64,000 nucleotides of DNA from Hyalella azteca (Eukaryota > Arthropoda > Malacostraca > Amphipoda > Hyalellidae). Below, piece by piece: positions 4,263 through 61,900 of the stretch (positions are counted from its first letter, which is position 1; every line of letters starts with the position of its first letter). The notes beneath the pieces were generated by a model, which had not been told where the DNA came from, did no database searches, and worked only from the letters and a program-made list of their open reading frames with translations. Location: positions 1 through 64,000 of the forward strand of contig NW_025940870.1 in assembly GCF_000764305.2 (NCBI RefSeq), written 5' to 3'. The translations under genes and the position numbers were made by a program.

Positions 4263-4979
4263 TTCTTACTTAAAAATGTGGCTTGAGAATATTTACGAAT
4301 CTCAAAAGCGTTATTTTCGTTTACACTTTTTATTGATGAACTAGATTTGAAGTTTGAATTTGCGTGTTGTTACAGATGGCGTCCGCGTGGCGGGTTGAGA
4401 ATATTTACGAATCTCAAGCGTTATTTTCGTTTATTACACTTTTTATTGATGAACTAGATTCGAAGTTTGAATATGCGTGTTGTTACAGATGGCGTCAGCA
4501 TGGCGGGTTGAGAATATTTACGAATCTCAAGCGTTATTTTCGTTTGTTACACTTTTTATTGATGAACTAGATTCGAAGTTTGAATATGCGTGTTGTTACA
4601 GATGGCCTCAGCGTGACGGGTTGAGAATATTTACGAATCTCAAGCGTTATTTTCGTTTCGTTTTTTTTTTTACTTTTTATTGATGAAAAAGATGTGAAGT
4701 TTGAATATGAGTGTTGTTACAGATGGCGTCAGCATGGCGGGTTGATAATATTTACGAATCTCAAAAGTGTGATTTTCGTTTAGTTTTTTTTTTTACTTTT
4801 TTTTTTGATGAACTAGATGTGAAATTTGAATATGCGTGTTGTTACAGATGGCGTCAGCATGGCGGGTTGAGAATATTTACGAATCTCAAGCGTTATTTTC
4901 GTTTGTTACACTTTTTATTGATGAACAAGATTTGAAGTTTGAATATGCGTGTTGTTACAGATGGCGTCCGCATGGCGGG
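4263..4979 (+). repeat. 113-125 bp tandem array carrying splice acceptor plus start codon
   Basis: Six copies of ttgttacagATGGC put ATG at 4376, 4489, 4602, 4723, 4848 and 4961, spaced 113, 113, 121, 125 and 113 bp. Each earlier copy goes on with the first ~18 coding bases and then tgagaatatttacgaatctc; only the last continues into the real exon. Three units include extra T runs. The array is thus a repeated exon 5' boundary. Confidence 0.92.
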
Positions 4980-5134
4980 TGGTGGCTTTCTTCGTGGTCG
5001 TGTTCCTAGTGCCAGCGCTGCTCATCACGCTGCCTCTGTACGCGCGCTACACGCTCTACCCAACACGCTACCTCGCCCTGTCTCCCTCCGATACTTTAGA
5101 CCTGCACTACATGGCCTCTACCTTCTGGTGCCAG
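4961..5134 (+). CDS. First gene, coding exon 1 (start codon, membrane anchor)
   Basis: The exon follows acceptor gttgttacag at 4951-4960, with ATG as its first codon, and encodes residues 1-58, MASAWRVVAFF to STFWCQ. It ends with CAG before gcaagt, so the donor is GC rather than GT (5135-5136). It is phase 0, and exon 2 opens in phase 0. The acceptor, ATG and next ~17 bases are the last unit of a six-copy tandem array to the left. Confidence 0.8.
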
Positions 5135-8100
5135 GCAAGTTAAAGCAGCGCGCCGCCCATTAATTAGAAACCATTAATTAGAAACCCATGTGGTAAAATA
5201 ACTTGGAATTTTCTCGTGCTGGTGAACACTATCCTCAGGTAATGCAGTTATCGGTGCTTGCGTCGTCGGCAGCCAATCCGCCGACTTCTTAATTTGAAAC
5301 GCATGTGGTAAGAAAAATTTAAATCAGTACCGGTACTCACTGCAGTGAGTGACAGAGAGCGCATTTTTCGCTCGTCGACGAAAACGTGAATTCACGGACA
5401 GACGAACAGACAGACAGACGGACGGACATGACGAGCACAATAGGGCCTTTTTTCCATAAATGAGAAAATGCACTAAAAACTTGGAATTTTCTCGTACTGG
5501 TGCACACCATCTTAGGTAATGCAACCAATACCTGTCTCTTCTGTACCAGCAATGTGTACGACCGTTTTGTCAGGGTATAGGTAACATTTGCAATGAATTT
5601 GATCAGCAGATTAGCGTGGCAAATGTAAATCTAGATTTCGCAATGTACTATTAATGATGAATGTTCCACTGTTTCCAAAACTAAAAATTGCAAGTAAATA
5701 TGTAGTATCTTTGCACGAACTAATAGTCATATATTGATAGAAAACGATGAATGGGCTCATGGATGCTCAGGAGCAAAAAGTTGCCGAGAGTGTTGAGCCT
5801 TTCAAAACACTTTAATAGCGCTGAAAAAATTTTTCAAGCTAAGTCTTCTAAGGAAACACATATGAAGCAATTTTTCAACATTATCCTTTCACTTTAAAAA
5901 ACGAAAACTAAAAAATATCCTTTGGATGGGAATACAGTTTATTTTTTCTTACGGAAATCTTAAAGTTACGGAAATGTACATTTTCCTATTAATAATAATC
6001 ACTTGCATATAAATATAATAATCATTTGAATATAAAGATTTGTTTGGTGCGCAGGGTCAGTGGCTGAGCTGTTCTTCATTCATTCATTGTCGTCATAATT
6101 CTCACTAAAGAAGATAATCGATGTTATAAGTTAGTTTGAAGACAACAATGAATTAAATTGATCATGAATGATGATGAATAAACGCAATCTTGAATTAATA
6201 AAGAACAGACTAGACGAAGCTAGAACAGACTAGACGAAGCTATGCAGGAGCATATGTTCTGTCTTAAAATGCCTAGCAAATTACGGACCAGGCAATAAGC
6301 CCAGCAGCTATCTCAATCAATCGTCAGTTATGGAAAGATCGGGTTCCAAAGGCCGGATCCCTTGTGAATCAAGTCACGAAAAATTCAAGAATCGGCAACA
6401 GGCCATGGGCCTATTTCTTCAGTGCCGACACTTCTATTCTATTCTAATATATAACTTAGATTAAACAATTTATTATATTTCACCTTTTAATGTGCAGGGT
6501 CAGAGGCTGAGCGGCAACGGGACGTTTGACGCCTACCTTCTGGACGAGGCGCCCAAGCCTGACAAGCGCAGGGTGCGCGTGACGCAAGAGTCGCCGGTGC
6601 TCGAGATCAGCGAAGAACTGCCCTCTCTCAGGACGCTGCATCTCGTCAAGGGCTCCACTTTCGCCCTCGACGTGTGTGCCAAGTGAGGAAAATGACGATA
6701 AATTTCGACGTTTTGTGAGGGAAAAAATGATGAATTCAAGTGAGGGAAAAACAAATTTATGAGGGAAAACAAGTGAGGGAAAAAATGATAAATTTCGACG
6801 TGTGTGCCAAGTGAGGGAAAAAACGATAAATTTATTTTATCTAGGTGAATGCATTTGTATAATATATGATTTAACTTGTTTGAATTTGTGAGAATCTTGG
6901 TACTTAATGAAATTTTTTTGCGCCACATGGGTATTTGTTAATTCATTCGTAGGTTTGTAGGTTTGAATGAAATTTTTGAAGTCATCGTGTCAAATTATTA
7001 TTCTAAAAGTGATGATTTCAACAGATGGGATGGAGGTGTTATCATTGTCGTCCGGGGTGAGAAAAATCTCAAAAAATGTTTCTATGAAGAAGTTAAAGAC
7101 TGGGATGACTTGCTACCTGACAAGACTCAGCACGGCAAGCCTGCCAAAGTTACCCCTGAACAAGCAGTCAACGGAGATGACCACGTGAAAGTAAACCCCA
7201 AGTTCCCTCCTTCGGACACGTCAAAGGCGAAGCCACCAGTTGAGCCCGCGCTTCCTATAGGAATCTCGGACGTTGTCAGCGACGATGATGACGAGGCCGA
7301 TGCGAGAGAAATTTTTGATGAAGAGAAACTTGGTGGCACGCTCTATGATAACGATGAAACATGGGTGCTGGATCACAGTGGCCGCAAGGTAGAAGCTACT
7401 ACAATACGACTTCTGGATGTTTCTCCACCTTATACTTTCTCGACTAGAAGAACCACGAGCGTTGAGAAAATATCCTCAGTGAGAGCGGATGAACCTGAAG
7501 TTGCTTCACCGAGTGAGTCCAGCACCACGAGACAATCTACGCCGGTAGCGCAAACTGATATTCGTTCGTCTACAGTATCAGTTTCATTCAACTCAAGCAA
7601 TTCTGAAAAACACGAACAATCGATGCCGCTAAATATATCGAATAAGAAAGTTGAAGAAGAAGAGCACATAATTGACGATTTCGATGATGGAGACGCAACA
7701 GTCCGGCTCTTGAGATCAGTGAGAGCAGTTACGTCTTCCGGGGAACACTCAAGAACGTCAGACGCCATAGACGAATTGGACGAGAAGGCAAAACTTGAGC
7801 TGTTACACAGCGTTGTCGATACTGTCGATGTGACTGCAGGGAATTCTTCGCACTCCAGCAGTGAAGAGTTCATGGCAAAATGCACAGACACTATCATTTA
7901 CGCTGACATTCAAAGAACATTTAACTGTTCTTCCAAAGATTTAAGCGTTAATCCTAAATGGAGATTCAAGATAAATTCCACAGATGATTACTACTTCATA
8001 TTCTTATCCGACAACAGTATAGAAATGAACTTGATGAAATATTACTTACAAGTGAGTAGAGTAATGTACAAAGTTTCGGACTATGAAGACTTTTGTAATA

Positions 8101-8309
8101 GTACATCTGAGTGTGCGTTTCCATTGTCTTTTCTCGGATCCGAAGCTGTTGTAATCGAGATGGCAGAGCCAGACTATTCAAGCAGTGAAGAAGTTTTTAG
8201 TTCCGTTAAAAAATTTGAAGTGCAGGCCGTATGTCAGCCAAGAGTTGCAGTTTATTTAATTTTTATTTTGATGGTTCCATTCATAATCCTACTTTTCGCC
8301 TTCCAGTGA
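4961..8309 (+). CDS. Double-membrane-anchored protein, three coding exons (571 aa), function unknown
   Basis: Coding exons 4961-5134, 6498-6682 and 6953-8309 join in frame: 174+185+1357 = 1716 nt, 571 residues plus stop. Residues about 6-27 form a hydrophobic signal anchor (FFVVVFLVPALLITLPLY). The next stretch is conserved-looking (YPTRYLALSPSDTLDLHYMA, then FWCQ) and runs across the first intron into GQRLSGNGTF. The middle of exon 3 is acidic and serine-rich with several N-glycosylation sequons. The last ~20 residues are a second membrane segment (VYLIFILMVPFIILLF) ending in a short tail, so most of the chain probably lies outside the cytosol. The N-terminal half reminds me of arthropod proteins with the DUF4792/DUF4793 domains (named after plant APD1-4 E3 ligases), but there is no RING finger here and I recognise this only weakly. 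The start is the first ATG after acceptor ttgttacag; non-coding 5' exons are presumably upstream. Confidence 0.82.
5328..5478. mobile_element. Palindrome-bearing short repeat, copy 1 of 5
   Basis: It contains the 14-base palindrome ctcactgcagtgag, then gagcgcattt, cgtcgacgaaaa, a run of gaca/gacg units and ccataaatgagaaaatgc. Other copies: 22209-22385, 24824-24955, 31888-32048, 47643-47795. It has no coding capacity. Confidence 0.75.
6053..6080 (+). pseudogene. Partial copy of exon 2 start of the first gene
   Basis: gcagggtcagtggctgagc differs by one base in 19 from the real acceptor and exon start at 6494-6512, then diverges. It offers a decoy acceptor inside the intron, 440 bp before the true one. 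Confidence 0.6.
6205..6450. mobile_element. Dispersed repeat fragment with (attct)n tail
   Basis: It runs from cagactagacgaagctatg through gatcgggttccaaaggccgg, aatcggcaacaggccatggg to ctattctattct. It matches 51744-51935 and 54445-54602 in the opposite orientation. A short-period tail at one end is typical of non-LTR retroelement 3' ends. Confidence 0.7.
6498..6682 (+). CDS. First gene, coding exon 2
   Basis: Acceptor tgtgcag ends at 6497. The exon reads GQRLSGNGTFDAYLLDEAP and ends DVCA plus two bases (AA) before donor gtgagg at 6683. It contributes phase 2, and exon 3 supplies the third base of the lysine codon. A 22-base copy of its start lies at 6053-6080 and a copy of its end with donor at about 6798-6820. 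Confidence 0.8.
6683..6840 (+). repeat. Duplicated exon 2 end and donor of the first gene, with gtgagggaaaaa repeats
   Basis: tcgacgtgtgtgccaagtga, the last exon bases plus donor (6668-6687), recurs at 6797-6816. Between them gtgaggga donor-like repeats are scattered (6716, 6741, 6760, 6774). Confidence 0.75.
6953..8309 (+). CDS. First gene, coding exon 3 (C-terminal exon)
   Basis: The acceptor is ttcattcgtag, ending at 6952. The next acceptor-like tag at 6960 would break the frame. The exon opens (K)FVGLNEIFEVIVSNYYSK, contains a long Asp/Glu/Ser-rich region (codons for DDDDEAD near 7280) and ends with a membrane segment and FAFQ before TGA. One open frame of about 450 codons with no internal stop makes this exon secure. 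Confidence 0.88.
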
Positions 8310-13426: not shown

Positions 13427-13429
13427 GAA

Positions 13430-15557: not shown

Positions 15558-15559
15558 GG

Positions 15560-18006: not shown

Positions 18007-20692
18007 TTATCGTCTAAGAGTGGCACAAATATCTTTGACGGTGGCGACAAGTTGAGGGAACTGCGAGCTCGAGCCGTTGGCGCCTTTAGAAGACGCGTAT
18101 ACTTGACCCGCGGACGCGGCATGATCCGGGGAACGACTGCCACCTTTAACTCTCATCTGTCGCACTTCATTGTCAAGTCTACCCAGCATTTCTAAAAGCT
18201 GAAATCTGTTCTGAGGAGGCATGTGGTCCACATAGCTGCTGCACCACATCTGGAATTGTTCCAGCTGCAGCACTAATTGAATGCAGGCGCTTGACGAAAG
18301 AGGTGCACCCGGGCAGAGGGTTTTCGTGACGGCGTCTTCCACTTTACGAGTTTCTTCCATCATTTTAGTGCGGTCCGTGGAGCTGCCATCGCCATTGCTG
18401 TCCGACCCATTGCCGTTACTTTCATAGCTATCAGTTCGGTGGGTCAACTTTGAAATTTTTGTAGACGAATGCTTAGATTTACCACCATAGGAATCCTTTG
18501 ATGGATCTGCGTTCTTCTGGCTTTTAGGCTTATTAAATTCAATGCATGATCTGGACATTTTTGTTCCATCCTTGTCCTTTTTAGACGAGGCTGAAGACTG
18601 CTTCACGAAGGACGGGGTGGCATAAATACCACCTGGCTTAGGGGGTGGCAATTTTATACCACCGCCGGAAGGTGGCGGCGGCCGTAGATTTTTTACGCTG
18701 GGTTTAGTAGGGACAGTAGGTTTGCCATCCATAGGAGGCGGCCAAACTCGTCTTTCAAGTTTACCAACCTTTTCTCCATCAGGGCTTACCTTCAAGGAAG
18801 TTGCTTGGTCTTTTTCTTTGGGGAATTCAGGCTTCTGATAGAAGCTGGGCGCATACTTAGGACTAGTTTGATTGGCATCTTGTTTGGTTGAGGAGGTACC
18901 CTCCTTCTCTTCTTCTTGCTTCTCCCACAGCTTCTTTAGGTTACTTATGCTACTAGAGCTGAAACGCTTGGGATCGTCGTCAGCTTTAAGCGAGTCGGAA
19001 TTACCGCTGTCGCGTTTGTCTGAAGAGCCATCAATGCTGTTTCGGTGAACATTGTCTTCGTAGCAGTTTTTCTTGTTCATCTCATCCTCGTGAACTTGAC
19101 TAGAATAGTTGACGTTGTTCGTATGGCAAAGTGGTTGTTGCGGATCTTCGTCAATGGCATTGGAATCCTTGCAGTCGCCATTCTCCTCTTTGGTTACGTG
19201 GGTTCGACGAAGTTGAGACCGAAAATCAACGATGTGCGAGTCTCCCTCAGCTGCTGCTGTTGGTTCAGGCCCTGACTTGCTCACTTCAGTTTTTCTAAGT
19301 TTCGACTTGAAATCGATACTTGGTTGATTAGCAGCATTTTCAGTTCTCTCAGGACAAGCCTGCTTACTCTTTTTAAGATTAGATGCAAAGGGTGCAGGCG
19401 GATCAGAGGCCGCTTTATCTTTGACCGAATTAAGATTGCCGTCAGTAACTGAAGAAATTGGCTTCACATTACCGTTATCCGGTGGAGGAGGTCCAGTTTT
19501 TTGCCGCAAGCTCTCAAAAAGTTCTGAAACGAGCTGGCCAGCCTGAGTCGTATCAGGCGCTGACTCGTCTGTGTCCAAGTTTTCCCGGGAAGATACTGAC
19601 TGAGAAGCAGTTGTGGCGTTCTTATTCTTACCATTCGATGCAGAATGGTGTTGTGTTCCCGTGACTGTGGAGGGAGTTTCTGCACTATTCCCAACATAGC
19701 CAGAAGGAGACGGGGGAGTGTCGATTGTTTCGGCGGAAGAGGAACCCGGACTTCGAGTCAAAGACCAATTAGATTTAGAACCTTGTAGGGCAGATCTAGG
19801 AGACAAATTTTCGCACGACTTGATGCTGTCACAAGAATCTGAACTCTGATCTCGGTGTCGGAGATTAACACCAAACCTCAACGCTGGGCTACCGTCACTA
19901 GTATCGGTCCCGTCCGGTGCAGCATCTATTTGGGGCTTAGCTTTTACCGGAGGCCGTTTGCCTTCGGAGTCTTTCAACCTGCGACGCGTGACTGAGAAGG
20001 GCGCACGTTCCGGCTGTGGAGATGGTACTGTGTCATCCACTTTCCATGTTGTGACGTCATATTCAGATCGGTCAGTGCGATTTGATGAGCGGTGTGCAGA
20101 CGCAGGGGGATCCTTGCGTCGAGACCGCGGCGACGGCAAAGGTCTGCCTGAGTGGAATTTTCGACGATGTTCTGGCGAAGCCGGAAGCAAATCTGATGAA
20201 GGTGGCGGAGGAAACTCCAATGAATACCCTGAAGCGTTGATGTCTTCCAAGAAATCATCAGGAGGGGGAGGCAAATCACTGGGAGGTGGAGGGAACTCTA
20301 AATGAGTGATGGGTGTGTGGTGGTTGACAGCAATGGAAGAGAAGTCTTTGATGTGACCTCTGCGGTCTCGATCACTCCTTTGTTGCACGCTACCACGAGG
20401 ACTAAGTCTACTGAGCAGAGGACTCTGCGGGACAAAACTGCCTTGCGTTGAGTTACTGCGAATCATGGCTACAGAAAATGGGTCCTTCTTGGAGTCGTGG
20501 CCTGGAGCAGAATACTGTTGGTAGTGCAGCATGGGTTCTGGCATGGCACTAGGGTGGGCCTCATACTCGTAGGTGGGGTGGTCGGGGAGCATAGAGTCGT
20601 CGTTCGAAGGAACCACCCCGTGCTGCAGGCCGCTCTTGCGCAGGCTCTCCAAGTAAGCGCCAATACGAGCATTTTTTGGCAGGGTGCCGTAC
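18007..20692 (-). CDS. Abl: Abl coding exon 16 (large last exon: Ena-binding motifs, F-actin-binding domain)
   Basis: The 895-codon last exon starts (R)[20 protein letters not shown]. Two LEFPPPP motifs (in [18 protein letters not shown] and [12 protein letters not shown]) are ligands for the EVH1 domain of Ena/VASP, the classic genetic partner of Abl. Repeated short modules around Phe-Lys/Arg-Ser-x-Leu-Arg ([22 protein letters not shown]) and NLKKLWEKQ recur in fly Abl as DFKAHLRR and SLKKLWEQ. PxxP stretches ([20 protein letters not shown]) lie further on. The final ~105 residues ([34 protein letters not shown], ending [10 protein letters not shown]) are the F-actin-binding four-helix domain. 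The stop is TAA at 18007-18009. Confidence 0.97.
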
Positions 20693-23600
20693 CTTGAATG
20701 CAATAAAATCTTTTACTGAAAAATTTTCAACAATTTTAAAACTTACTAATTTATATAGGTGCAATGACGAAATAAAAATAAACACTTGAAAAAAAGAAAC
20801 GAAAAAGAGAAAAGTTCTGCTATATCAAAGGAAAAACTTGCGTGGGTGGCAGAAATAATCCAGGAGCTGGAAATAGGACACCGATGAGCCTGAGACAACA
20901 ATTGACGTGCGTCATATTAAATAAGCAGTCTGAGAAGGCTATAACATGGACCGCGCTCCAAAAAGACGCATTCGAATAGAAAAAACAAACGTTAGTTGAG
21001 AATAAGTGGACTACAAACCTGGTAATAGCACGACGCACGTTGTGCACCTCGAGCGTCGCTACGGTGACGGTACGGCCGCTGCCGTGAGGGTCTGCCTTGT
21101 CTTGCTTGCTGCGTCTGCCGCTGCCGCCGCTGCTCGTGCGTACAACACCGCGACTGCACACATGTAAGTAGTTTAATCTTCAGCCATCTCAGCAGTGGAA
21201 TAACAATTATTAAAAATATATGGCACCACAGGCGAGGCCGTCTTTGCGAAGTGTTAAATATTTTTCATTTGATAGTTTGCCATTAAAAATATATAACAGG
21301 AACCACAGAGAATCCTGGTTATCCGTACACATACAAAGTACCTCTTAGCAGAACCTAGAATTGTTTGGAATGCTTCAGAGAAATGAAAAATGCTGTCTAA
21401 TATTGCAGTAAACAGGAAATGTGTAGCGAAATTTTAAGTCTGAAATATATGAGCGAGTAGACTTGAGTACACGTAGCGGTCGATCTCTCGTCTGTGATTG
21501 GCGGTCGAACTTATGATCTCTACGCTATTCTAGATAGTATGGCTCATGAGGCATAAGATATTACAGGTCAGTAGGCAGGTTTATCTCTGTCATGGAAAAA
21601 TGCCATGATGAGGAGACCTTGTCAACACCTGACTACTGCTATTAGTTAGTTAGAGACCTAATAAATATAACGCATCAATTCTTTTCACAATTTGACTACG
21701 AAAGTATCATTAATTGAAATGTGCAGTTCTCGAGATTGCATACTTGGAGGGCTGAACATCTGTACTGAAGCAATTGAAACGACGAGCTTATTGGATGAAA
21801 TTCACCAAAACCGTCTTTTCAGCTACATTGTTAACTGCTGTCATAATAAATGTCGAGTTACTTGAAGGATGAATGAGCAGTGTCGCCCCTACGAGGGAAC
21901 TGTAGACCCCCTCTGGAGTCGTCAGTGTCAGGGGTGTTGTTTATTGGATGAAATTCACCAAAAACGTCACTTCAGCACTATTGTTAACTGCTGTCATAAT
22001 AAATGGAGTTACTTGAAGGATGAATGAGCAGTGTCGCCCCTACGAGGGAACTGTAGACCCCCTCTGGAGTCGTCGGTGTCAGGAGTGTTGTTGTCGGCCA
22101 CACCCCCGCCACCTCCTTCGCTCTCAGCGTCATTGCTCGACGCCAGGTCTACCCCGTCGCGCTGCACTCCTGTCAACGATCAACCCATTACTTGCATGAA
22201 CAAAAAGATATAACTCAGTACTCACTGCAGTGAGTGATAAAGTGCGTATTTTCTCGTCGACGAAAACTTGAGGGAGCGCATTTTCTCGTCGACGAAAATT
22301 TGAGGTCACGGATGGACAGACAGACAGACGGACATGGCGAGCACAATAGTGCATTTTTCCATAAATGAGAAAATACGCTAAAAATACAGGAATCGAACAA
22401 TACAATGAGATGCTTGAGAGGTCCTCATAACGCTTCAGATCAAGCTACCTCATGTAAAGTGATTGTTAATAATAAAAATAAGAACAGGACCTTGCTAATA
22501 AAAGATATTATATAAGTAGAAGATTGTAACGTAAACACAAAAGATTTAAACCTAGTGTCGAGGGATTGTTAATAATAAAAAAAGAACAAGACCTTGCTAA
22601 TAAAAGATACTTAACAAGTAAAAGATTGTAACGTTAACAAAAAATTTAAAACGCAATGATAGCTATCAAACCTTTACCGGGAGACCGGCCTAACAAGCAA
22701 CACGTTCTCATGCGGTATAATGTTCTTGATATGAATCAGTTACCATAGGATAATAACTCGTCTCGAGAATCGCAGTCAACACGAACCAGGCTCTACCGCT
22801 TTGTTGGACATACTTGCTTACCCATCAGCTTCATCACGGTAAACTATTCCACTGACTCGGAAACGCATGGGTCGGTAGGCACTGCGTCTTGGTGCATAGG
22901 CGCTCAGCTCTGAGAGGATGCCTCGCAATTATCAAATCTCTGGGCTACAGTAAGCCCCTTATTTTGCAGCTCAAAATATAAGGTACGGTTATTGTATACC
23001 TCGTCTCAGGTTATATATTCATCATTCTCCAGCACAGAGAGATAGCATAAAAGCAACTTTTGCCATTTTCCGCTAGAATAGAAGCAATAAGGTTTCTTGA
23101 GAAGGCTTGCTATATGAGCAATTTCATGAGTGTGCCTAATGCGACACACAGCAGAATTTGAATATCACGATCTCTTCCCAGACAGTAGGAATTTTCAGAG
23201 CACTTGGGATATAGGGCGATTGCTTGCAATTTGTGCCCTTGTGGAGAAACCTAAGAATTTATAGCAGCAGCTGGGCAGAAATATTTGTATATTCTCAGCA
23301 TCGGTGATCAAATCTACACCTCAGCGGAAAGCTTGAAAGTGAAGAATTTGAGATCATCGAGTGGGCCATACACTTGAGTCTCATGCATTTTTAATATGCT
23401 GGATGGGTGTTATTCTGAAGTTACTGAGATGGTATGGCAGTTCTAAGACGATATATTGTTTAGTTTAGTTGGTGTATGGCTCTTAAATTTTTTCACTTAC
23501 GAGGACAAAAAGCGGCACAGCATTTACTGTGAGAAGCAAATCATCGGCACAGCCACATGCAGAACTCTGCCGAGCTCCAACTTGCTCGCCATAAAAAAAT

Positions 23601-26600
23601 CCAGATCACTTGGACCTCCTGATTTGGTAAAATCTGTGATGCTAATATCTTTGTGAGTTCTACGCACCATTAACAAAAACTTTAATTTCCTCTGTCAACT
23701 ACGCACCATTAACTATTGATAACCACTTGAATTTCCTGTCAAAACAAGAAGCATCAGAAGATAACACCATCGAGTTCAAAGAGGTTGTTTTGCTTGCTAC
23801 CGGGATCCTCACAGAAAGTTCACTGATCGTTCAGGTATACAGAGCATACAAAGCATAGTTAAGCGGGAAAGCGTCCATCCTGAGGTATCCGTTTAACCCT
23901 ATTCTTGTCACGGGTGTGAGCTGTGCGAAGTTTAATCTAGTCGCTTGCTTATCGAAGTCAATTAAGCAGGAAATCGGACGCGTTTTTAAACTTCTTACAC
24001 TGCGATAATTAAACTAACTATTAAGAGCCTTCTATAAAAAACGTTGATCGCACGATTCATCACTGAGAGCACATAAAACAAATTAAATACACGAGTTCTG
24101 TTTATTCACTCGTGCATCGCTATTTAACAACTTCATAGAAGCATCGGCGGCAAATGACAGAGGCACGAAACCAATCAGAGGCTGCACTGCAGGTCGCATG
24201 GAGCCAACGCCAACATGTTTGAGCGATTTTAATGAACATTTCTAAATTATTGATCTGATACTGAAAGAGCTCAGTTGAGGAATAGTTCATCTACATTCTA
24301 CTAGAACTTCTTTATAGTTGGTTATTTTCGATTAGGAAGATATTTTTACTCAAAATTTCGATGTAGGAACTAACCGTAATAAATATCGTGCTACAACATT
24401 GTAATCTATGATAAAGAAGAGTTAATACGCCAATAGATTGATGGTTTTTAATCGCTGCTACTCGCGCCGGTTTGTTTCCCTGTAAGGTAAGCTTGCTGGC
24501 CTTCAGCAGCTACAACTAATACGAACTGCCTTAGGTTAGGTTAGGTTTATTTCCTGCTAAAATTAGGTTAAGTTTATTTATAACAGGGAATCCATCTTTA
24601 TACAACATGCATTAAAAATAGGTAACATGTCATTTTAAATGCCATCATGACATTCAAAATGATAATAAGATGAAAGTTAGCAGTTGTTTTTATTATTGGT
24701 ACTCTAAGATAGTAATAATTTGTTCACTAATACATAACTAGACAGTAGTTACCATGAATAACATCAACGAAAAATTAATTTAAATCGTCCAAAATTGATG
24801 TCAATACAATATATAAAATATAACTCAGTATTCACTGCAGTGAGTGACAGAGAGCGCATTTTCTCGTCGACGAAAACGTGAAGTCACGGACGGACGGACA
24901 GACGGACATGGCGAGCACAATAGTGCATTTTTCCATAAATGAGAAAATGCGCTAAAAATAAGAAATAAATCCATGATGCATCAAAATGGCATATCAGTAC
25001 CATTAAATTCTGGGGAGTCTTCATGCAAGAGGTGAGAATGCTGCTGCAGGTGGTGTTGCTGCTGCAGATGATGTTGCAGATGGTGTGGTGGCATGTGCAT
25101 TATCTGGCTACCTGGCGACATCTCAGGGGTGCCGTCGCTTCCGCCGCCGCTCTCTCGAAACGAACTGAAGCAAACCCCGAAACTGCGCGACAATATACCG
25201 ACGTTATCTTATTGAAAAAACTAGCCTAACTAAACTGATATGTAACATATATTTTACAAAATAGTCGATGTTCACGAGGGTTATTTAATTGAAAAAACTA
25301 GCCTAACTTAACCGATATGTCACATATATTTTACAAAATAGTCTAGGGAGACACAAATAGAGGTTATGTATAGCCCCAGATATAAAGATAATTGTAAAAG
25401 ATAGAGAAGAATTTTTCAAAGAAGAATTGAGTTAGCGAGACAACTGTAACTGATGTAACAACTTCAGGTTTTCAGCCTGAGTGATGGAGAGTTGGACGAA
25501 CCTGGTGCGTTTAGGTGGGGCGGGTGCCTGCTTGCCCCGCTTGTTGGTGGGTCGCGTCCTGAGCTGCACCACCGAACTCTTGCCCACCATGGTGTGGTGG
25601 CATGTGCATCATCTGGCCACCTGGCGACATCTCAGGGGTGCCGTCGCTGCCGCCGCCGCTCTCTCGAAACGAACTGAAGCAAACCCCGAAACTGCGCGAC
25701 ATAATAACGACGTATTACAAGGGTTATCTTATTGAAAAGACTACACAAGGGTTATCTTATTGAAGAGACTAGCCTAACAAAACTGATATTAACATATCAG
25801 GAAAACATATTGATATTCCAAAATTGTCAAAAACTAGCCTAACTAACCGATATGTAACATATATTTTACAAAATAGTCTAGGGTTAAACACAAATAGAAG
25901 TTATTTATAGCCCCAGAGATATTAAGATCTCTAAGAAGATAATTGTACAAGATAGAGAGAAGAATTTTTTAATGAAGAATTGAGTTTGCGAGACTAACAC
26001 CTCTAGGTTGTCGCCCCGAAACTGCGCGACATTATAACGACGTTATCTTATTGAAAAAACTAGCCTAACTAAACTGATATATAACGTATATTTTAAACAG
26101 TCTAGGGAGAAACACAATAAGAAGTTATTTATAGCCCCAGATATAAAGATCTCTAAGAAGATGATTGTACAAGATACAGAGAGAAGAATTTCTCAATGAA
26201 CAATTAAGTTAGCGAGACTAACACCTCAAGGTTTTCAGCCTCAGTCATGGAGAGTAGGACGAACCTGGTGCGTTTAGGTGGGGCGGGTGCCTGCTTGCCC
26301 CGCTTGTTGGTGGGTCGCGTCCTGAGCTGCACCACCGAACTCTTGCCCACCTCACCACCCCCACCTGAGGGCGTCACCACACCCGACCCTCCACTGCGCT
26401 CACCACTGCGCCCCAGCGTGGGGCTCTCGTCGCCACCTTTACTGTTGCTGCGGCTGCGCAATAATGTATTATAATAATAATAATAATGAAATAATAATAA
26501 CAATTTCATTATACAATACGTTGCAAGATAATATTCTCAGATGTACTCTTACCTTTCATTCTTAGTTTTACACGAAAATATTACATCCTACTGATGTAAA

Positions 26601-29600
26601 CGATGCTATATAATATTCTCAAATGTACTCTTACCTTTCATTCTTAGTTTTACACGAAAATATTATATTCTACTGATGTAAACTATGCAAGATAATATTC
26701 TCAGATGTACTTTTAACCTTTCATTCTTAGTTTTACACGAAAATATTACATCCTACTGATCTAAAAGGTAGAGAGACGCAATGAGCGGAGTTATTGAATG
26801 CCATGTTTGAAAATGTTCAAGCTGATTCGGGCAAAGCAAGTAATAATTGATTATCTCAGGTTACATTTTAAATGTAACTTCTCAAAACGAACTGAACGGA
26901 AATGCATTTAAAAGTTTATAGCTGATGAGAGTTATTTTAATNCATACGGCACAGGCTGCTTCCTGCTGTACAACACCGGTGCACAGGTGCTGTACTCCTG
27001 CCATTACTTAATAACTATATTACACGCGGCATCAAGAACAAGAGGCTAAAACTAGCTAGATAATTGCTTGTGTTAAACATCATATTACAATTAATATTAA
27101 CTATATTATCTTTAACCATACTAAAGATGATAGGAGTACCAGAGGCTAAAACTACCTAGATAATTGCTTATGTTAAGCAATAAATTAGAATTATTAATAA
27201 CTATATTACACGCGGCATCAAGAACCAGAGGGTAAAACTACCTAGATAATCCTCATGTTAAACAACAAATTACAATTAATAATAACTATATTACCTTAAA
27301 CCATACTAATGATAATAGTACAGCACAGCTGCACTAATTACCCATCACTTGCGTCTTAACCTTAAGGTATTCCCCGTAATTTTCCTGTAATAAAACAAAG
27401 TAGGAGGCCTGGGCCTATACTTTCAAAAAAAAAGTTAAGAGATCGACAGTTCATCAGCCAATCATTGACGGCCTTTCAAGCAAAATGCACCAATCATAGA
27501 CAAGAAAATAGAGCGTAAGTACTTACGTTCACTTAGCGAGTTTTGAAAGTATGGCCCCAGACTAAGACCTAAGGCTGGGAGACCTCACCGTCCGTGATGG
27601 AAGTCTCCTGAAACATGGTCTCGAGTGCGTGGTGGATGTGGCTGAAGGAAGGACGGTCGGCAGGACTCCACATCCAGCACTGCTTCATGAGCTCGTATAT
27701 GGTGGGAGGGCAGCCTTGGGGGCAGTCCATGCGGTACCTGGGGCATCGGATATCGGATCACATAGTGCAACATCTGGGGCACATAGTGCAACATCTGGGG
27801 CACATAGTGCAACATCTGGGGCACATAGTGCAACATCTGGGGCACATAGTGCAATATATGGAGCACATAGTGCAACATCTGGGGCACATAGTGCAACATC
27901 TGGGGCACATAGTGCAATATCTAGGGGCACATAGCGCAACATCGGATCAACCTCGCATTCAAGCAACAATATGGAATCATCCATTGCATCGAACTTCAGC
28001 AAGCATTTTCCATATTCAATTTGTTTGGCAGAAGAAATACTTGCTTTCACAAGGAAAATACTGTTGGAAAGATTCATTTGGGTATCACTAACATAGAGTT
28101 CTCTGGACAAAATTATTATACAGATAGCGAGTATTATTGAAAACACGCTAGTCCTACATTTAAAAAACTCTCTAATGCATTTAATTGGAAGACCTAGGCT
28201 TGACACAACAGTAATTATAGTTGGTGCAATGAGCAAGCAATGTCATACTTGAATGTAATGACAGCCCCAGCCACTGGGACACTGCTGAACCAAGCCAAGT
28301 CCAAGCAGCGAGGAGAGCGAAAACTAATAAAAAAATGATCACAAACAACGTACTAACTATTGCTCACCCTGACTCGAGTAGATGGTACACATTAGTGAGG
28401 TCCACGCCAGGGTACGGAGACACGCCGTAAGTGGCTATCTCCCACAGCAACACTCCGAATGCCCAAACGTCCGACTGAACACAAAGAGGAACGTCATCAG
28501 CAAGCAAATTATTTAGCCTTTATTTCCAAGTAGAAACCTATGATGAATTGTGAAACAATCTATTAATTAATGCTTTGAATAATTATGAATCCATTATTTC
28601 CTCCAGCTTTGAATGCCTCATAATTGAACGTTATCCAAATTATTCAGAACAAATGTTTTGAAGAGCGGGAAGCAAATGCATCTTCATGTTAAATCAATAG
28701 AATTTGGCCATGTTAGAGGCTGAAGGACTTTCTAAAAATAAAACCCAGAACAAACGGTTTCATCGTCGGTCTATAAGTGCAAAAAACGCACCTGTCACCA
28801 AGTTTGACCTACGATGAAATTCTAGTTTAAAAATGGCTGCCTTGAAGCGGTTTCTGACCACAGCAATTTTTTGCAGTTCAACCCAACAATATGTCTCGAA
28901 GCACTAAATAAACTTTCCAAGTAAATACGAGAGACTAAAATTCAATAAAAAAACGAAGCATAAATAAAAGAGCCTTAAGTCAAATAATTAATGTGAGTAA
29001 ACTTGGAAACAATTTTTTTTGTGGTCCACAATATTATGGAATATTGTAGCTCAAGTGTCAAGCCCACCTTGGTGGAGAATTTGTTATAAGCAAGGCCCTC
29101 TGGAGCCGTCCATTTGATGGGGAACTTTGCCCCGGCGTGCGCAGTGTACGTGTCGTCACGCATGAGGCGCGCCAGGCCGAAGTCTGCCACCTTCACCAGG
29201 TGGTTCTCCCCCACCAAACAGTTACGTGCAGCCAGGTCCCTGAAACAAGAGGCACAAACTGAAACATGAGGCACAAACTGAAGCACGAGGCACAAACTGA
29301 AGCACGAGGCACAAACTGAAGCACGAGGCACAAACTGAAACACGAGGCACAAACTGAAGCACGAGGCACAAAGTGAAGCACGAGGCACAAACTGAAACAC
29401 GAGGCACAAACTGAAACACGAGGAACAAACTGAAACACGAGGCACAAACTGAAACATGAGGCACAAACTGAAACACGAGACACAAACTGAAACGAGACAC
29501 AAACAGAAACACGAGGCACAAACTGAAGCACGAGGCACAAACTGAAACACAAGGCACAAACTGAAACACAAGGCACAAACTGAAACACAAGGCACCAACT

Positions 29601-39829: not shown

Positions 39830-39830
39830 T

Positions 39831-43216: not shown

Positions 43217-43227
43217 TGTATTAGCAT

Positions 43228-46761: not shown

Positions 46762-46811
<50 letters not shown>
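46762..46811. repeat. (aat)n microsatellite
   Basis: About 16 pure trinucleotide units. Confidence 0.95.
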
Positions 46812-49172: not shown

Positions 49173-49249
49173 GCGAGCTGAACGCGCTCACATTCATTAG
49201 CTCGTGTGAATGTGGCCTCTCCATTAAATGATGTCTTCACTACAACTGA

Positions 49250-51740: not shown

Positions 51741-51743
51741 ACA

Positions 51744-52581: not shown

Positions 52582-52934
52582 TTAGCGGAAGGGGTTTTTG
52601 TTCGATATTTCATATTTATCTCCACTAGCAGTTCGTGGAGGCGGGGGTTTAGGAGGTTTGGGCTTGTAGGACCCTGGCAGGGTTTGGGGTTGAATATTTA
52701 CCGAAGCGTGGTTCATTTTAGCTACACGAGGTTCTTGTAGTTCGTGCTTGACATCTAATTTTTGGTTGTTGATGAGGTTATGATCGTTTGTGAGGGTGGT
52801 GGTGATGTTGTTGCCACTGATGCTGGTGGTTGTGGTGTGTTTGTGACCTGGTGAGGTCACCTTAAGACAGATGTCACCGGACTCTCTGTCTACTGTGCTC
52901 TCGCGGATGCCGTAGTAGAAGTATATGGCCAGAC
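52582..52934 (-). CDS. Transporter exon H (last helix and cytoplasmic tail)
   Basis: It reads (G)LAIYFYYGIRESTVDRESGD, ICLKVTSPGHKHTTTT and a hydrophilic tail with a PKPPKPPPPRT stretch, ending EISNKNPFR before TGA. The YFYYGIRES motif closes CAT-type transporters. Poly-proline may bind SH3 or WW domains. Confidence 0.9.
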
Positions 52935-55900
52935 CTGTTGGAGTAAAGAAAGATTCTGTGATGTGCTAAAAGGCAGGTTAAATAAATCTAAAGTAGATAT
53001 TAGAAATGCGTGCCGTTATGCAGATAAATTGTTATACTTGCTTGGATAAAGCGTTCAGACTACGCATCCTTGTGGCACGCCACTGCGCACTGTTGCCCAG
53101 TCTGATACGGTTCCGTTAATACTGACACTTTTTCGTCTCCCTATTTGAAAATCTTTGATCCGTTGTGTTAATTACATTTCCCTTTATTCCATGTGACTAC
53201 ACTTTACGCAACAGCCGCTCATGCCAAAGCATTTGACTTTGTCAAATGCTTTGGTAAAATCGAGGTACACCGCAACCACTAGCTCCCTTTCGTCTATGCA
53301 GGCGAGTCCAATCGTTCAAAGTTGACAAACGACTGGGCGCTCCTCAATAGCTGGAATAGTGTTCAAGTCCTCAACAGGCTATATAAAAATGTATTTATGT
53401 ATATGTTTTAATTAGAAGTGACCCCCACCTCAGAAATTGATGAACCTCAGCTACTTAAAATAAGAAAAGAAGCAGGTATACTAAGATCAGAAAGCAGGTA
53501 CCTAAAGTAAAGGTGAGGCCTATTGTGGATATGACGTATTTCGACGTTGCAAAAATTTTTGGTAAGCTTGACAATGGAGTGCTCCTCGGAAAACTAAGAC
53601 CACAGGGGTCGAAGGAGATTTATTTTCGTGCTGAAACCAATTTATTACAAATCACTAACCAATATATTGCAAGGGGGAGCTGCGTGGGGGTTACGATATT
53701 TAGGATTCCGCAGATAACTGTGTTCGGAGTGATTTGAGTTGGATCTCTCTTGGAATGATCCTATTCTGTGGCGGGATGCAGGCTGTCGTTGGAGCTGAGA
53801 GGAGAAGTTCATCCTCTTACAAGAGTCGACTGACCGTACTCCTGAACCCAATACCTATCGTCTTCCTCTGCACCACGACAATCGGCATGAAGCAAGCTAT
53901 AGAATCGTGCATCAGCTGTGTCAAACTGAGGATACTCCTGAACCCAATACATATCGTCTTCCTCTGCACCACGACAATCGGCATGAAGCAAGCTATAGAA
54001 TCGTGCATCAGCTGTGTCAAACTGAGGTACAGATAGTTATGTTCCATTAGTAATGGGACCTCTGCGCCACGACAATCGGCATGAAGCAAGCTATAGAATC
54101 GTGCATCAGCTGTGACTGAGGCACAGATAGTTATGTTCCATTAGTAATGGGACCTCTGCACCACGACAATCGGCATGAAGCAAGCAATAGAATCGTGCAT
54201 CAGCTGTGTCAAACTGAGGTACATATAGTATGTTCCATTAGTAATGGGACCTCTGCACCACGACAATCGGCATGAAGGAAGCAATAGAATCGTGTGTCAA
54301 ACGTGCCAAACTGAGGTACAGATAGTATGTTCCTTTAGCAATGGGATTCGGAGTGGCGGCTCTTAGGCGGCCCCCCGACGTATCTGCGTCCCGAACTCTT
54401 ACCAAGGTTACGTATCACAGGTTGGAAACTACTGTCTGAAGAGTATATAGAATAGAATAGAATAGAAGTGTCGGCACTGAAGAAATAGGCCCATGGCCTG
54501 TTGCCGATTCTTGAACTTTTCGTGACTCTATTCACAAGGGATCCGGCCTTTGGAAAACGATCTTTCTAAAGCTGACGATTGATTGAGATAGCTGCTGGAC
54601 TTAAAAATATTATAAATATAATATATATTACGAGGCATAATAATCCGCAGGCATCACACATACCTATGGACATCCAGACGATGAAGCGGATGAGTGTGAG
54701 GAGGTTGAGTTTGAGGATAAGGTAGATGTTGACCAGGATGGCGGTAGATGGCACCCACGGCAGACAAGGCGCCAGGAACGGCAATGCAGTTCTGCCCAAA
54801 AAATTATTCTATAAGCACAATTTATCATCAAGATGCTAATTTAGTTTCACCTCATCTAGATAAAAATTGCCAACACTACTTCGAAGTAAAATCACTTGAC
54901 TACTTAGATCGCATAAAAGGATAAAGATAGTTTTCTACTTATAATCTATTTAAAGCATAAAGATATCTGCTTAGATAAAACTACTTGAATGCTTTGATCG
55001 CAAGTTAAAAAATCCTTTATACGAGAAAACATTTCGGAGTCCAGCTCCATTGTCGGTTCAAAATTATTTAAGACAAGCAGAATCAATTGTAAGACTAAAA
55101 TTCACATTGAAGATAAAAACCAAATTTTTCTAAAGGAAAAAACAAATAAACATAACGTGACAGGCCTATCTATTTACAATTTTAAGGGGATAGGAGCTGA
55201 ATGCGGCACTTGAACTAGGTTTTTCTTTAAAAATATACAAGGATTCTAAAACACTACTGCGACTTGTGGCACTGGAAATGTGCAAATTGTCAACGCGACT
55301 CTGAACTTCTACACTCCGCGAAATAATCGCTCTAGGTTGCATGCCGCTGTATCATTAAGACAATGACGAGGACGCCGATGAAGAGAACGATGACGAAGAA
55401 CCACATGAGCAGAGAGAGGTCCTCTAGCGCCTCTATCCCTTGCACCAGCGCCACGTCCAGCGCAATAATGTTAAGGTACAACAAACCTAAGAAACAAGAT
55501 CAAAATATTCATGTTATTTTGGATATCAGTTGGTCATGTTATTCATGTCATTCATGTTGGGCAATCAGTTGGTCAATATGTGTCATCATATAATACATGT
55601 ACAATAGGTATACACGCATACAGCCTTTACCCTAACGTTTTAGTTCAGACGTTTAATTCGTGAGCTTAGACTATGCCGCAAAGCAGTAGCACAAATTACG
55701 ACTGTGCCGCCTAATTGGGTACAAAATTAAGCCTACATTGCATGGGAGTCTCATAAATTAAGACTACACAGCCTAGACCCTAGAGTCTCACAACTCTAGA
55801 CTGCACAGCTCAGATAAATTCCGCGCTGTAAACTAAGCTATACTCAACCTCACAAATTAAGATTATACAGCCAAGAGTCTCATAACTCTAGACTGCACAG

Positions 55901-58900
55901 CGCAGGTGCTGGTGCAGTCCAGAGTCTCCTAACTCTAGACTGCACCAGCGCAGACGCTGGTGCAGTAGCACAAACTAAGCCTGTGCCACCTAATTGAGTA
56001 AAAAATTAAGCCTACATCTACATTGCAGGCGCCGGTGCAGTGGTCACCTACCAACAAGTCGGGCGGCTGAGCGCCCCGTCTCCTCAGTGCACGCAGCGTC
56101 CACATCGATGGGCAGGAACTGTGGCAGTGTTTGCCAGAACACGTCGATCACGCTGTAGCGGAGTATAACATTCACTAAAGCTTACTTCACATTAACTATT
56201 TGGTTTCAATTTTGTTATAGTTGAAGTTATTATTCTACCGTGTAGTGTTCGTTTTATACACGGAGCAGTGGCATTTAGAATGCTCGGAATGTTTCTAGAG
56301 TAGGTACCGGTTTAGCAGCGGAACTTACTCGCAGCGGCCGCTGTTTAGCGCACGGGCATCAAGACGTCACGTAACCATGTGTATACGTGAATTTTAAATG
56401 TCTCTACCTATAGAATCCAGCCGACTGTAAAGTGTGTTAGGTAATACGGTTTTTTTCTGCGCTCAAGGCTTCAAATCAGTTAACATTCATCGTCAAATCG
56501 GTGATGTGTATTTCAAAAACATTATGAGTGATGGAATGGTGCAGGAATGGGTTAGGGCCTTCAAAGATATCCGCGCAAACATTCATGACGAGGAACGAAG
56601 TGGGAGACATTAAGGCATTACCGATGATCTAATTCAAAAAGTAGAATGTTAAGTGAAAGAGAACACACTTTTACCGATTTCATCCTTGGCTGAAAAGTTT
56701 CCTGCTATCCAAGGAAGCGCTCTTAACGAAATTGTCTTATCATGTTATTTAAATAGGACGGGAAGCTTCGATGACGATGGCATACAAACTTTGGTCCCAA
56801 GATACCTTAAATGACTCGATTTTAATGGGAATGATGCAGAAAAGTTGAGTAAAATATGAAATTTCAAGTGGGTAAATTATTTATTGTTTTTTACTTAATT
56901 AAAACACACGCCTCAGATAAAATGTTTCAGGACGTGTCTTCCCTGGAAGCGAATCCTTGAGGACCAAGATCACGAATAAATTGAACAATTACTAAAACTG
57001 GAGCCAAAAAATTAATTGGAGAAATAACCACAACAAATGATATTTAATTGCTTTATAGCTAGGATAACAAATAATAATTTTTACTTATTAAAGCATAATA
57101 CAATTGGAAGCTGAAAGGATATAGTTATAGCAGTTTTATTTGAATCTAAAATAATACTCACCGTCTGTGCAGAGGCTGTGGCTTCTGAGTAGCCGAGGGA
57201 ACCGCTCCGTAGTACCTGGCGTACACGAATTGTTAACAGACTTTTAATTCGCTTTATTATGATAGAGCGAGCCTACATGTGACAAATTGCAAGCAATAAA
57301 TAATTTAAATAAACATACTAACGCATTAGAGTATGCAAAATTATTCCGTCATTAAAATGATATTCAGATTTCTCGGAAGGGACCAGCAAAAAAAAATCTG
57401 CCAGAAACATTACCCACTCATAAATGGACTGAAAACATAATAAATTTTATTGAAAATTTTTGAAAACAAGCAATATCCAGCCCAATATAAGGTTCATACT
57501 GCATGTCACATGTAATAATTTAACTTGGTAGCCCTTTCAGGAATTTTCAGCTTAGTTGCAGCTCCACTCATTTTTAATTAAGTAGCACCCTTGCTAATTT
57601 TCAGCTCTGTTGCGCCTACATCCATCAGAACGGTTTTGTAAGCATGTTGTGAGTAAGGAGGAGTAGCTTTAAGTTGGGGAGATGAACTGAAGCTACGATG
57701 ATAGGTCACGGGTTTGATCTGAAATCGAGATACCATAGCAGATTGCATGGGTAAGCATACTGGGCGACGATTGGATTCTTCAAGGGCGCCGCGTCAACCC
57801 TAACTTGTGAATTAGCTGACTAAACTACATGTCCTTCTTATGCAAATATTCTCGGATCTAAAAGTCACTCCCTGCCGTGTCCTGTCTTCAAAGGCCACGT
57901 CCTGTCTTCAAAAGCCACGTCCTGTCTTCAAAAGCCATGTCCTGTCTTTTAAAGCCACGTCCTGTCAACAAAAGCCACGTCCTGTCCCCAAAAGCCACGT
58001 CCTGTCTTTTAAAGCCACATCCTGTCCCCAAAAGCCACGTCCTGTCCTTTAAAGCCACGTCCTGTCCCCAAAAGCCACGTCCTGTCTTTTAAAGCCACAA
58101 TGCAAAGAAGACCCCATCGTAGAGTAACACTTATCATGCAAAGAATACATCATCGTAAAGGGCAGCAGTAGCGCACCTGTGCTGGGGCGCGGCGTCGCTC
58201 CCCACCATGAACTCGTCCTCTTTGCGCGAGTCCACGGAGCCTTCCTCCTCATCGTCGTCTGAATCCGACGGCGCTCGCGTCACGCGCTGACAACGTGCAT
58301 GTACTTAATTAAGTAATGTGTGATTATAATAGGGGGATGCTTTAATGATCAATAAAAGAATGATTATCATTAGAAGGATACTTCGATAATCAAGTGATGG
58401 GTGATTATTATCACAGGGATACTTCATTGATCAAGTGACGAGTGACTATCATCAGAGGAGTACTTCATCGTGAACTTAATTCTTGCCCAACAGGCGCCTG
58501 ACATTCACTATATAGGCAAACTTTTCATCAACTTTTATAATAGAATATAATGGTCTTCATAGATTTTATCATACACTATGAACGTAACGCAATAAAGCTT
58601 ATATGAATCAAATCAATTCTAAAGCTTGCGTTCGGACAAGCATGAAACAAGCGGTCACGCCTGAATGTCGTGAAACTTATAACATGGACGCATTTACAGC
58701 CAAATTTTTGTGTTAATTGCGATAAACAATAAGATGTGATTCTAAGAACGACTTATTGTTTGAAATCTTCAATAATCCGCAAGATTACATCTGAGCTCAT
58801 TGCACATTCATTTTTGAACTTTATTTTATTGGTTATCATTAATTTGAGCTGACGATTCTTAAAACATCTGCTCTGACGAACGTTTTCCTTGTCGCAGACT

Positions 58901-61900
58901 CCGTTAACAAAATGTGAGCGTTAACAAATATTTTTCATATCTAATCAATGACTCGTGAAGATTAGCTAGTTTTATTTTACTTATCACTTAATATTTGCAC
59001 TCTTTTATAATTAACCAAAGAATTGTGATGATTAACTAGTTTTATTTAACTGTTTAGTTAATATTTGCGCGTTAACAAATATTTTTTATGTCTAATCAAT
59101 GACTCGTAATGATTAGTTTTATTTAACCCTTCAGTTAATATTTGCACTCTTTTATAATTAACCTAAGACTTGTGATGATTAGTTTTAGTTAACTTATCAC
59201 TTAATATTTGCACTCTTATATATCTAACCAAAGACTCGTAATGATTAGTTTTATTTTACTTATCACTTAATATTTGCACTCTTTTATATCTAACCAAAGA
59301 CTCGTAATGATTAGTTTTATTTACGGAGCCTTCCTCCTCATCGTCGTCTGAATCCGACGGCGCCCGCGTCACGCGCTGACAACGTGCATGTACTTAATTA
59401 AGTAATGTGTGATTATAACAGGGGGATGCTTAAATGATCAACTGAAGAGTGATTATCATAAGAAGGATACTCCGATAATCAAGTGACGGGTGATTATTAT
59501 CACATGGATACATCCTTGATCAAGTTGTTACGGGAGAGCGGGTAACTATTAATAATTACGACAGAGCTGCCTAAACGCTCAATGTCCCCGGGCAGGAGAC
59601 CCTACTGGTACCAGGGAGGACGCATACAATAAAACCTACTAAGGGCGCAAGAATAAAATTCAACCCGAATTTTTATTCAATCGCGACAAGAAACCTAGAC
59701 ACAAATATCAATACTAGCTACCTACTTCATTGGCTACTTGAAGCTAAAAACATATTTATTCAAATAGTCGACTCGCGACAATTCTAAAAACTGATGACCT
59801 TTGCCAAAACGGAACACGAGACGCACCAACTTCACGAGAGCCGCGTATATCTTTCAGGGGAAGCCCTAATACATTAACGGACGACCCCAAGCGGCACGGA
59901 CACCGGGCCTGGAACACGATGGCTCGGCCCAGGCAAGCCTAGGGGGGTCACGCCTCCACGAGGAACTTCAAGACTCTAGTTAAACTCGTCATTAGGCGCT
60001 CCAATAAGGTACGACGGTAGACGCCCAACGCGGCTTGGCTATGCAAAGCGCACGGGAAACCAAGGGGCAGACTGGTCAAGTCGGCTCCCACGTCAGGTAA
60101 ACACTGGGGGCGGTCAGCTCCTTCCAACGGTGCACGTTCACGGTTCACAACCTTGAACAGCCGTCCGAGAGGAACACGGTCGGATCCCAGAAGCTGACGC
60201 CACATCAGAAAAGGTCCCTCCCACCTCATCCACGGAAGCCAACGAACAAAAAATCCAGCCTAGAACCGCTCAGCCCGCTCGTGACCTCGCGGCAGATTCG
60301 TTCAGAGAACACCTGCGTGTCAAACCTCTACAAAGTGACGAGTGACTATCATTAGGGGACTACTTCAACGTGAACACAATTCTCGCCGAATATGCCCCCG
60401 AAATTCACTATGAACTGGGACAGGGCAGGGTGAACTAGACAGAACTGGTCAGGGTAGCCCAGTGGTTACAGTTCAGAGTACCAAGATTGGCGCAGAGAGG
60501 CGCGGGTTCGATCCCAGCTCTGTGCGCCAGTTTCTGGTCAGAATCGGCAAGGAAGCCGGGCGGTTAAGCACAGCAGAATTGTAGCAGTGAGTTGCGAGTT
60601 TGAGACCGCAAAATACTGTGAATGTTCTGCGATGTTAAGAATCGGCGACAGGCCTACGGCCTAATAAACGCTGAAACCGCTATTATTATTATATTATTAT
60701 TATGGCAAATTTCTTATCAACTAATATTATGAAATATAAGTTATTCATAGATATTATCATACACTATGAACGTACAGCAACAAAACTTATATGAATCAAA
60801 TAAATGATAAAGCTTGCGTTCAGACAAGCATGAAACAAGCGGTCACACCTGAACATTGTTAAGCTTATACATGGACGCATTTACAGCTACATTTTTGTAT
60901 TAATTGTGATAAGCAATAATATGTGATTCTAAGAACGAATTTTTGTTTGAAATCTTTAATAATCCTCAAGATTACATCTGAGCTCATTGCACCTTCGTTT
61001 TTTGAACTTTATTTTAGTTTTCATCAAGCTAAGCTGACGATTCTTAAAACATCTGCTCTGGCGAACGTTTTCCTTGCCGCAGACTCCGTTAACAAAATAT
61101 GAGCGTTAACAAATATCTTTGATATCTAATCAATTACTCGTGAAGATTAGTTTTATTTTACTCTTCACTTAATATTTACACGCCACCGTGTTAAACAATA
61201 TATGAGCGTTAACAAATATCGTTCATATCTAATCAATGACTAGTGATGATTAACTAGTTTTAATGTCACTAGATTGCTTTAATCGCAGATTCAATAGAAA
61301 TTCAAAAGCGAACAAAACACCACAAAAATTCAGCATATCTCTATTGAAAACGTTTCGGAGACCAGCTCCATCGTCAGTTCCATAAATCTAGAACACAAAG
61401 TCAGAAAAATAATAAAATTTGCAGTAAAAAAACTGGTTTTGTTTTACTCTTCACTTAATATTTGCACGCCTCCGCGTTAAACAAAATTTGAGCGTTAACA
61501 CATATCTTTCATATCTAATCAATGACGTAATAATTATGATTAGTTAATGACTAGTTTTATTTTACCTATCACTTAATACAAAGACTCGTAATGATTAGTT
61601 TTATTTAACTCTTCACTTAATATTTGCGCTTTAACAAATATCTTTCATATCTAATCAATGACTCGTAATGATTAGTTTTATTTAACTTATCACTTAATAT
61701 TTGCACTCTTTTATAATTAACCAAAGACTCGTAATGATTAATTTTAGTTAACTCTTCACTTAATATTTGCACTCTTTTATAATTATTCAAAGACTCGTAA
61801 TGATTAACTAGTTTGACTCGTAATGATTATTTTAGTTATCCCTTCACTTAATATTTGCGCGTTAACAAATATCTTTCACATCTAATCAAAGACTCGTAAT

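Follow-up and report, generated by a model that had tools for sequence, protein, structure and literature searches.

Copied exon-intron junctions at chance frequency in a duplication-rich locus of the amphipod Hyalella azteca

Background

Splice junctions of three neighbouring genes of the amphipod Hyalella azteca are present in additional local copies that include adjoining exon bases, the number of junctions copied in this way is at chance level, and the exons are depleted of duplications. Local duplications placed by chance and surviving where they are silent probably explain the junction copies. The original junction is presumably the one normally used, and selection presumably lies behind the depletion of exons.

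The window, by which we mean the whole analysed stretch of 64,000 nucleotides, corresponds to bases 1-64000 of contig C2939 (76,144 bases) and carries genes for a DUF4793/APD1-4_M protein (gene 1), the kinase Abl and a cationic amino acid transporter of the SLC7 type. Gene 1 (4961..8309, + strand) comprises coding exons 1-3 and corresponds to the RefSeq protein P0001 of LOC108667700, on which its exon model is based; the open reading frame at 6942-8309 is 100% identical to RefSeq LOC108667700 (Hyalella azteca) across 94% of the ORF. The Abl gene (18007..39829, - strand) has 16 exons in the model used here, of which exons 2-11 form a single open frame once spliced. Alignment with the shrimp Abl protein (P0043) covers 14 of the 16 exons and leaves exons 2 and 13 unaligned, exon 13 being based on splice phase and on a resemblance to the shrimp protein judged by eye. 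The exon 11 donor and the exon 12 acceptor are out of phase in the model, and a small exon may be missing between them. The transporter gene (52591..64000, - strand) is represented by exons A-H in the window with further exons lying past it, and its protein, assembled exon by exon, matches decapod SLC7 proteins. Second copies of exons A and B lie outside the window on the same contig (C2939:64436-64624 and 74960-75076); that of exon B, roughly 1 kb short of where the contig ends, may have been produced by the assembly.

Altogether 27 exons with 49 junctions (25 acceptors and 24 donors) made up the junction set of the window. GC rather than GT is found at two or three of the 24 donors, namely gene 1 exon 1 (CAG/gcaagt, 5134), Abl exon 7 (AAG/gcacgt, 30801) and, with some uncertainty, SLC7 exon F (CAGCG/gcatgc, 55345), a share above the 0.9% given for human GC-AG introns (PMC4202315).

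Methods

Duplications were detected with a purpose-written seed-and-extend scan for ungapped direct repeats at spacings of 8-1200 bp; spacings of 5-7 bp lay outside the counts, the change being from 881 to 879 pairs. Control sequences were obtained by shuffling the bases within 400-bp blocks. Self-blastn was dropped as the repeat detector because short duplications close to the diagonal, the 61-bp copy at the Abl exon 3 donor among them, escape it; the 4, 7 and 7 junctions of 49 that it counted under three limits on spacing, with 6.0, 7.6 and 9.2 expected, were also not above chance. A junction was counted as spanned when it lay inside a copy with a margin of 4 bases on each side, and the null distribution was produced by rotating the junction set round the window.

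Background density was taken from 10-kb stretches sampled by contig number; 11 of 20 could be used, nine contigs being too short, so that this background leans to longer contigs, and two of the stretches contain 337 and 1689 Ns. Further junctions were collected by a PF07714 profile search of the genome, which gave 146 kinase-exon matches. From these, 62 in 23 stretches were used, mostly at loci with at least two neighbouring exons, and one match reading across an intron (L037) was left out. The exon edges in this sample are the best local splice sites near the profile match and not full gene models. A PF00083 profile search yielded 9 matches, which stand outside all counts.

Results

Copies of exon-intron junctions

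All ten junction copies named in the sequence-only reading were recovered, where it had placed them, by the independent scan for ungapped direct repeats, and in all ten the duplication crosses the exon-intron boundary, with 4 to 87 exon bases copied per case. Their description as lying beside the original is apt for spacings of 61, 98, 113, 128, 151 and 172 bp and loose for those of 443, 509, 763 and 1089 bp.

In gene 1 (+ strand) the acceptor of exon 1 belongs to an array of six units of about 113 bp (4280..4980), each consisting of an intron tail, TTACAG and about 20 exon bases beginning ATGGCGTC.., and the sixth boundary (4960/4961) runs into exon 1. The five spare acceptors at 4375, 4488, 4601, 4722 and 4847 have all kept the AG. 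RefSeq P0001 starts at the ATG following the sixth acceptor copy, which is the annotated start and no proof that this acceptor is spliced. The exon 2 acceptor (6014..6512) has its original at 6497/6498 and a spare at 6054, 443 bp upstream, with 15 exon bases copied and a poorly matching intron part (17 of 41 positions differ), while the exon 2 donor (6667..6833; original 6682, spare 6810) was copied with 16 exon bases. At exon 2 P0001 uses the original junctions.

The Abl copies are all on the - strand. At the exon 3 donor a 61-bp tandem duplication (35426..35551) includes 37 exon bases, the last exon base being 35515 and the copy boundary 35453. The exon 4 acceptor (34365..35015; original 34368, copies at 34540 and 34637) was copied with only 4 exon bases, and its copies sit within a complex 25/97/172-bp array. 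The exon 7 donor (30686..30855; original 30801, spare boundary 30702), of the GC type, was copied with 55 exon bases, and at the exon 14 donor a 151-bp tandem duplication (21788..22092) takes in 80 exon bases, with the last exon base at 22013 and the copy boundary at 21861. The remaining Abl duplication (25080..26351) has as its unit the 3' part of exon 12, the intron and the 5' part of exon 13, and leaves between exon 12 (26453-26265) and exon 13 (25164-25001) a chimeric exon-like stretch of 172 nt (25673-25502), in which the 5' part of exon 13 is fused to the 3' part of exon 12 and which, besides copies of the exon 13 acceptor and the exon 12 donor, contains an in-frame TAA. A genome search with this stretch returned 3 matches at one locus, which are the stretch itself and its two parent exons.

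In the SLC7 gene (- strand) the acceptor of exon C (58234..59525; original 58286) has a spare at 59375, 1089 bp off. Of the exon, 53 bases were copied, and from the copy an in-frame cassette of 51 nt ending GGCTCC/GTAAAT could arise. Introners, mobile elements that generate introns, would leave related sequences at many unrelated junctions; genome-wide searches with two stretches found 1 place and 3 places at one locus, and the other units were compared within 1200 bp.

Density of duplications in the locus

The scan detected 881 repeat pairs, as against 0, 0 and 1 in the three shuffled controls, which shows that the duplications do not stem from chance matching. Local duplications amount to 47 events in the window and take up 21% of it, as compared with 26% of the whole contig, with a coverage in the window of 28.5% in introns, 18.5% in intergenic DNA and 5.7% in coding sequence. 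Elsewhere in the genome coverage averaged 10.6% over the 11 background stretches of 10 kb; in the kinase sample it came to 13% of non-anchor bases in one batch and 18% in the other. The locus is thus about twice as rich in duplications as the 11-stretch mean, which makes the junction copies look striking by eye.

Two other kinds of repeat were noticed in the window. A minisatellite of 50 units of 31 bp with 97% matches occupies 41662-43221, between the second and third genes. A recurring palindrome-like element (AGTGAACGTAAGTACTTACGCTCTATTTTC..) is present in both orientations at 13187-13418, about 27440-27560, about 33450-33590 and 45629-45715, is tandemly doubled at two of these places and has a MITE-like look.

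Junctions are copied as often as expected from local density

The copies had been thought to outnumber those expected from random tandem duplication, and this was not borne out in the window, where 10 of the 49 junctions are spanned and the rotation mean is 9.9 +/- 3.4 (P=0.53). Varying the margin and the limit on spacing, in nine combinations, left P at 0.53-0.93 under window rotation, and rotation within the gene spans alone led to an expectation of 10.9 (P=0.69). When events were counted instead of junctions, 9 of 47 touched a junction, with 6.7 expected under uniform placement (P=0.21), 7.4 when coding sequence could be overlapped at junctions only (P=0.30) and 5.9 with mostly-coding events barred (P=0.10). 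On the full 76-kb contig 12 of 61 junctions are spanned and 15.2 were expected. The pattern is apparent because the 49 junctions sit in sequence about one-fifth of which is duplicated.

No peak of coverage at junctions was seen in the occupancy profile of the window, which is flat to falling toward them: acceptors are covered in 6 of 25 cases at -10 and in 10 of 25 at -300, donors in 5 of 24 and 7 of 24, respectively. An enrichment specific to acceptors, considered as long arrays abut Abl exons 5, 9 and 11, was rejected on the strength of this peakless profile. The array of 36 units of 19 bp at 29240-29911 stops exactly at the acceptor of Abl exon 9, and that of 9 units of 21 bp at 27759-27943 is situated some 20 bp upstream of the exon 11 acceptor. 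In both arrays a TTTCAG-like or CCCCAG-like site is found in most units, so that many acceptor-like sites precede the real one.

Beyond the window, 7 of 70 junctions were spanned in the first kinase batch (8.0 expected) and 15 of 44 in the second (9.6 expected), the latter being the only batch above expectation and containing a whole-exon duplication. Both batches together gave 22 of 114 with 17.5 expected (P=0.11). Whole-exon tandem duplications, recognised by the same profile segment occurring twice within 1 kb, were observed at two kinase loci, L022 (C750) and L031 (C2285), and with these two loci set aside the sample gave 12 of 100 with 9.9 expected (P=0.27). The window and the kinase sample combined had 32 of 163 junctions spanned, as compared with 27.5 expected (P=0.19; 95% limits of the ratio 0.80-1.64). 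Junctions are accordingly not hit significantly more often than expected from other positions, the finding named beforehand as speaking against a junction excess, in a set of 163 junctions that falls short of genome-wide. A strong enrichment is excluded by these limits, and a mild one, up to about 1.6-fold, is possible.

Duplications are depleted in exons

None of the 47 events lies wholly within coding sequence, as opposed to 3.0 expected under uniform placement (P=0.037; with an expectation of only 3.0 the test is a weak one), and coding bases in copies number 452 where 1721 were expected (P=0.009). This depletion fits the removal of duplications that change the protein. Together with the difference in coverage between coding sequence and introns and the lack of a junction peak, it supports the other possibility raised in the sequence-only reading, namely that junction copies survive as silent changes and exon-internal ones are removed.

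Read-through from the exon to the spare copy meets a stop in every case translated, which comprises gene 1 exon 1 (all five copies) and both copied junctions of exon 2, Abl exons 3, 4 (two copies), 7 and 14 and the chimeric stretch, and transporter exon C. A unit that contains a single junction leaves one complete working junction in place, so splicing can restore the old message. In the sequence of events that we propose, small tandem or local duplications, some of them amplified in a minisatellite-like manner, would arise across the locus regardless of splice sites. Those in introns or across one junction would be close to neutral, as one complete working junction remains, those internal to exons would alter the protein and be removed, and junction copies would consequently build up in proportion to the coverage of introns.

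Divergence of the copied pieces

The splice dinucleotides (AG, GT or GC) are kept in all 15 copies, and exon pieces have diverged by 2.5-2.7% as compared with 8.6-11.3% for intron pieces. As a neutral yardstick, drift confined to the spare copy should leave the exon part with roughly half as much divergence as the intron part. Over the ten cases, 12 of 452 exon positions and 58 of 515 intron positions differ, so that the exon rate is below half the intron rate (P=0.002). Without one poorly aligned case the counts were 11/437 and 41/474 (P=0.036), within 60 bp of the boundary 9/380 and 46/382 (P=0.001), and within 10 bp 3/94 and 6/97 (P=0.67). Ungapped alignment extending into introns with small indels may inflate intron divergence and account for part of the gap between exon and intron. 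A simple decay of unused copies would not predict exon divergence this low, which, with the 15 retained dinucleotides, hints at some constraint on the copies.

Discussion

The retained dinucleotides and the unusually conserved exon pieces can be counted in favour of the idea that junctions are preferred for duplication, or that the copies are kept for giving new introns or exons, so that the genome would be remodelling its gene structure. A potato duplication across an intron-exon border did make an intron (PMC4974935), and the slightly high combined count (32 for 27.5) and the second kinase batch by itself (15 of 44 for 9.6) point the same way. The excess, however, is significant neither in the window nor in the combined sample, no peak of coverage marks the junctions, and the read-through alternatives reach stops. 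The idea of active remodelling, put forward from the sequence alone, thus went unsupported, since the number of copied junctions matches the one given by local duplication density, both in the window and, to within the error, for the 23 stretches sampled elsewhere, and we regard it as decidedly improbable. It is likewise unlikely, in our judgement, that duplications of random origin have left spare junctions some of which are now used under regulation, such as the upstream acceptors or microexons of gene 1 and a poison exon of Abl. The Abl chimeric stretch, with an exon 13 acceptor, an exon 12 donor and an in-frame stop, is a candidate poison exon, and the SLC7 copy could serve as the in-frame cassette of 51 nt. 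Of the five spare units of gene 1, four contain an AG, 18 in-frame bases encoding MASAWR and GTTGA, the fifth having a stop. Only one MASAWR, however, is present in RefSeq P0001, and the donors GTTGAG and GTAAAT appear weak against the consensus.

Diverged haplotypes or repeats set in tandem by the assembly would also give the appearance of copied junctions, and the fragmentation of the assembly (518,993,365 bases in 4890 contigs) and the second copy of SLC7 exon B so near a contig end agree with such an artefact. The copies, on the other hand, differ from their originals by at least 2%, and one case is made up of six diverged units. The only Ns of the window are two, near 1513 and 26940, and none falls at the ten cases, and the search of the whole assembly with the Abl chimeric stretch disclosed no unduplicated allele elsewhere. 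An assembly origin is therefore very improbable. We return to duplications placed by chance and surviving where silent as the reading that suits the counts in the window and in the kinase sample.

A striking pattern of copied junctions can hence come from the local density of duplications alone. Junction-spanning duplications persist and wholly exonic ones were not found, which would provide a raw supply for intron gain by duplication across a boundary. Two places where the use of such raw material can be put to a concrete test are the gene 1 array and the chimeric stretch of Abl. It is doubtful that the spliceosome reads the spare junctions, splicing the gene 1 array into a series of 18-nt microexons that keep the frame and repeat MASAWR, or using it for alternative starts further upstream, and treating the exon 13/exon 12 chimera of Abl as a poison exon that limits Abl output. 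Were it so, random junction-spanning duplications would have been caught turning into new exons and introns in an amphipod, and such use would have left its mark in how little the copied exon pieces have diverged.

Internal gene duplications with the creation of introns were reportedly described by Gao and Lynch in 2009 (cited in PMC3443670 and PMC4974935), exon and intron pieces being partly duplicated inside the gene there as they are here. No title on copied splice junctions in Hyalella was present among the literature matches listed, which does not prove that such work is absent.

Tandem repeats offer a parallel for the depletion of exons: of the sequence classes of Daphnia pulex, Drosophila and Apis, coding sequence has the fewest of them for its length, and in D. 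pulex introns have the most (PMC3152781). The window follows the same direction with coding sequence lowest, although repeat sizes and method were different in that study and repeats with units above 8 bp are, unlike the duplications of the window, sparser in D. pulex introns than elsewhere (PMC3152781).

Tandem duplication is recognised as one way in which introns arise (PMC3443670). In a comparable case, the potato RdRp gene (Ma et al. 2016), a boundary-crossing tandem duplication gave rise to a new spliced intron, as shown by RNA-seq and phylogeny (PMC4974935). The copied segment in potato, like the acceptor units here, is composed of the 3' end of an intron and the start of the next exon, so that branch site, tract and AG are all carried along in the copy; the new intron is spliced there, whereas the present copies are known from DNA alone and show no significant junction excess. 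The AGGT duplication of the Rogers model (PMC4974935) also provides extra splice sites by tandem duplication, but from an AGGT segment internal to an exon, while the units described here span existing junctions and none of the 47 events is wholly coding. Judged by their anatomy, which is of the potato type, the present cases may be classed as ordinary examples of an established type of mutation.
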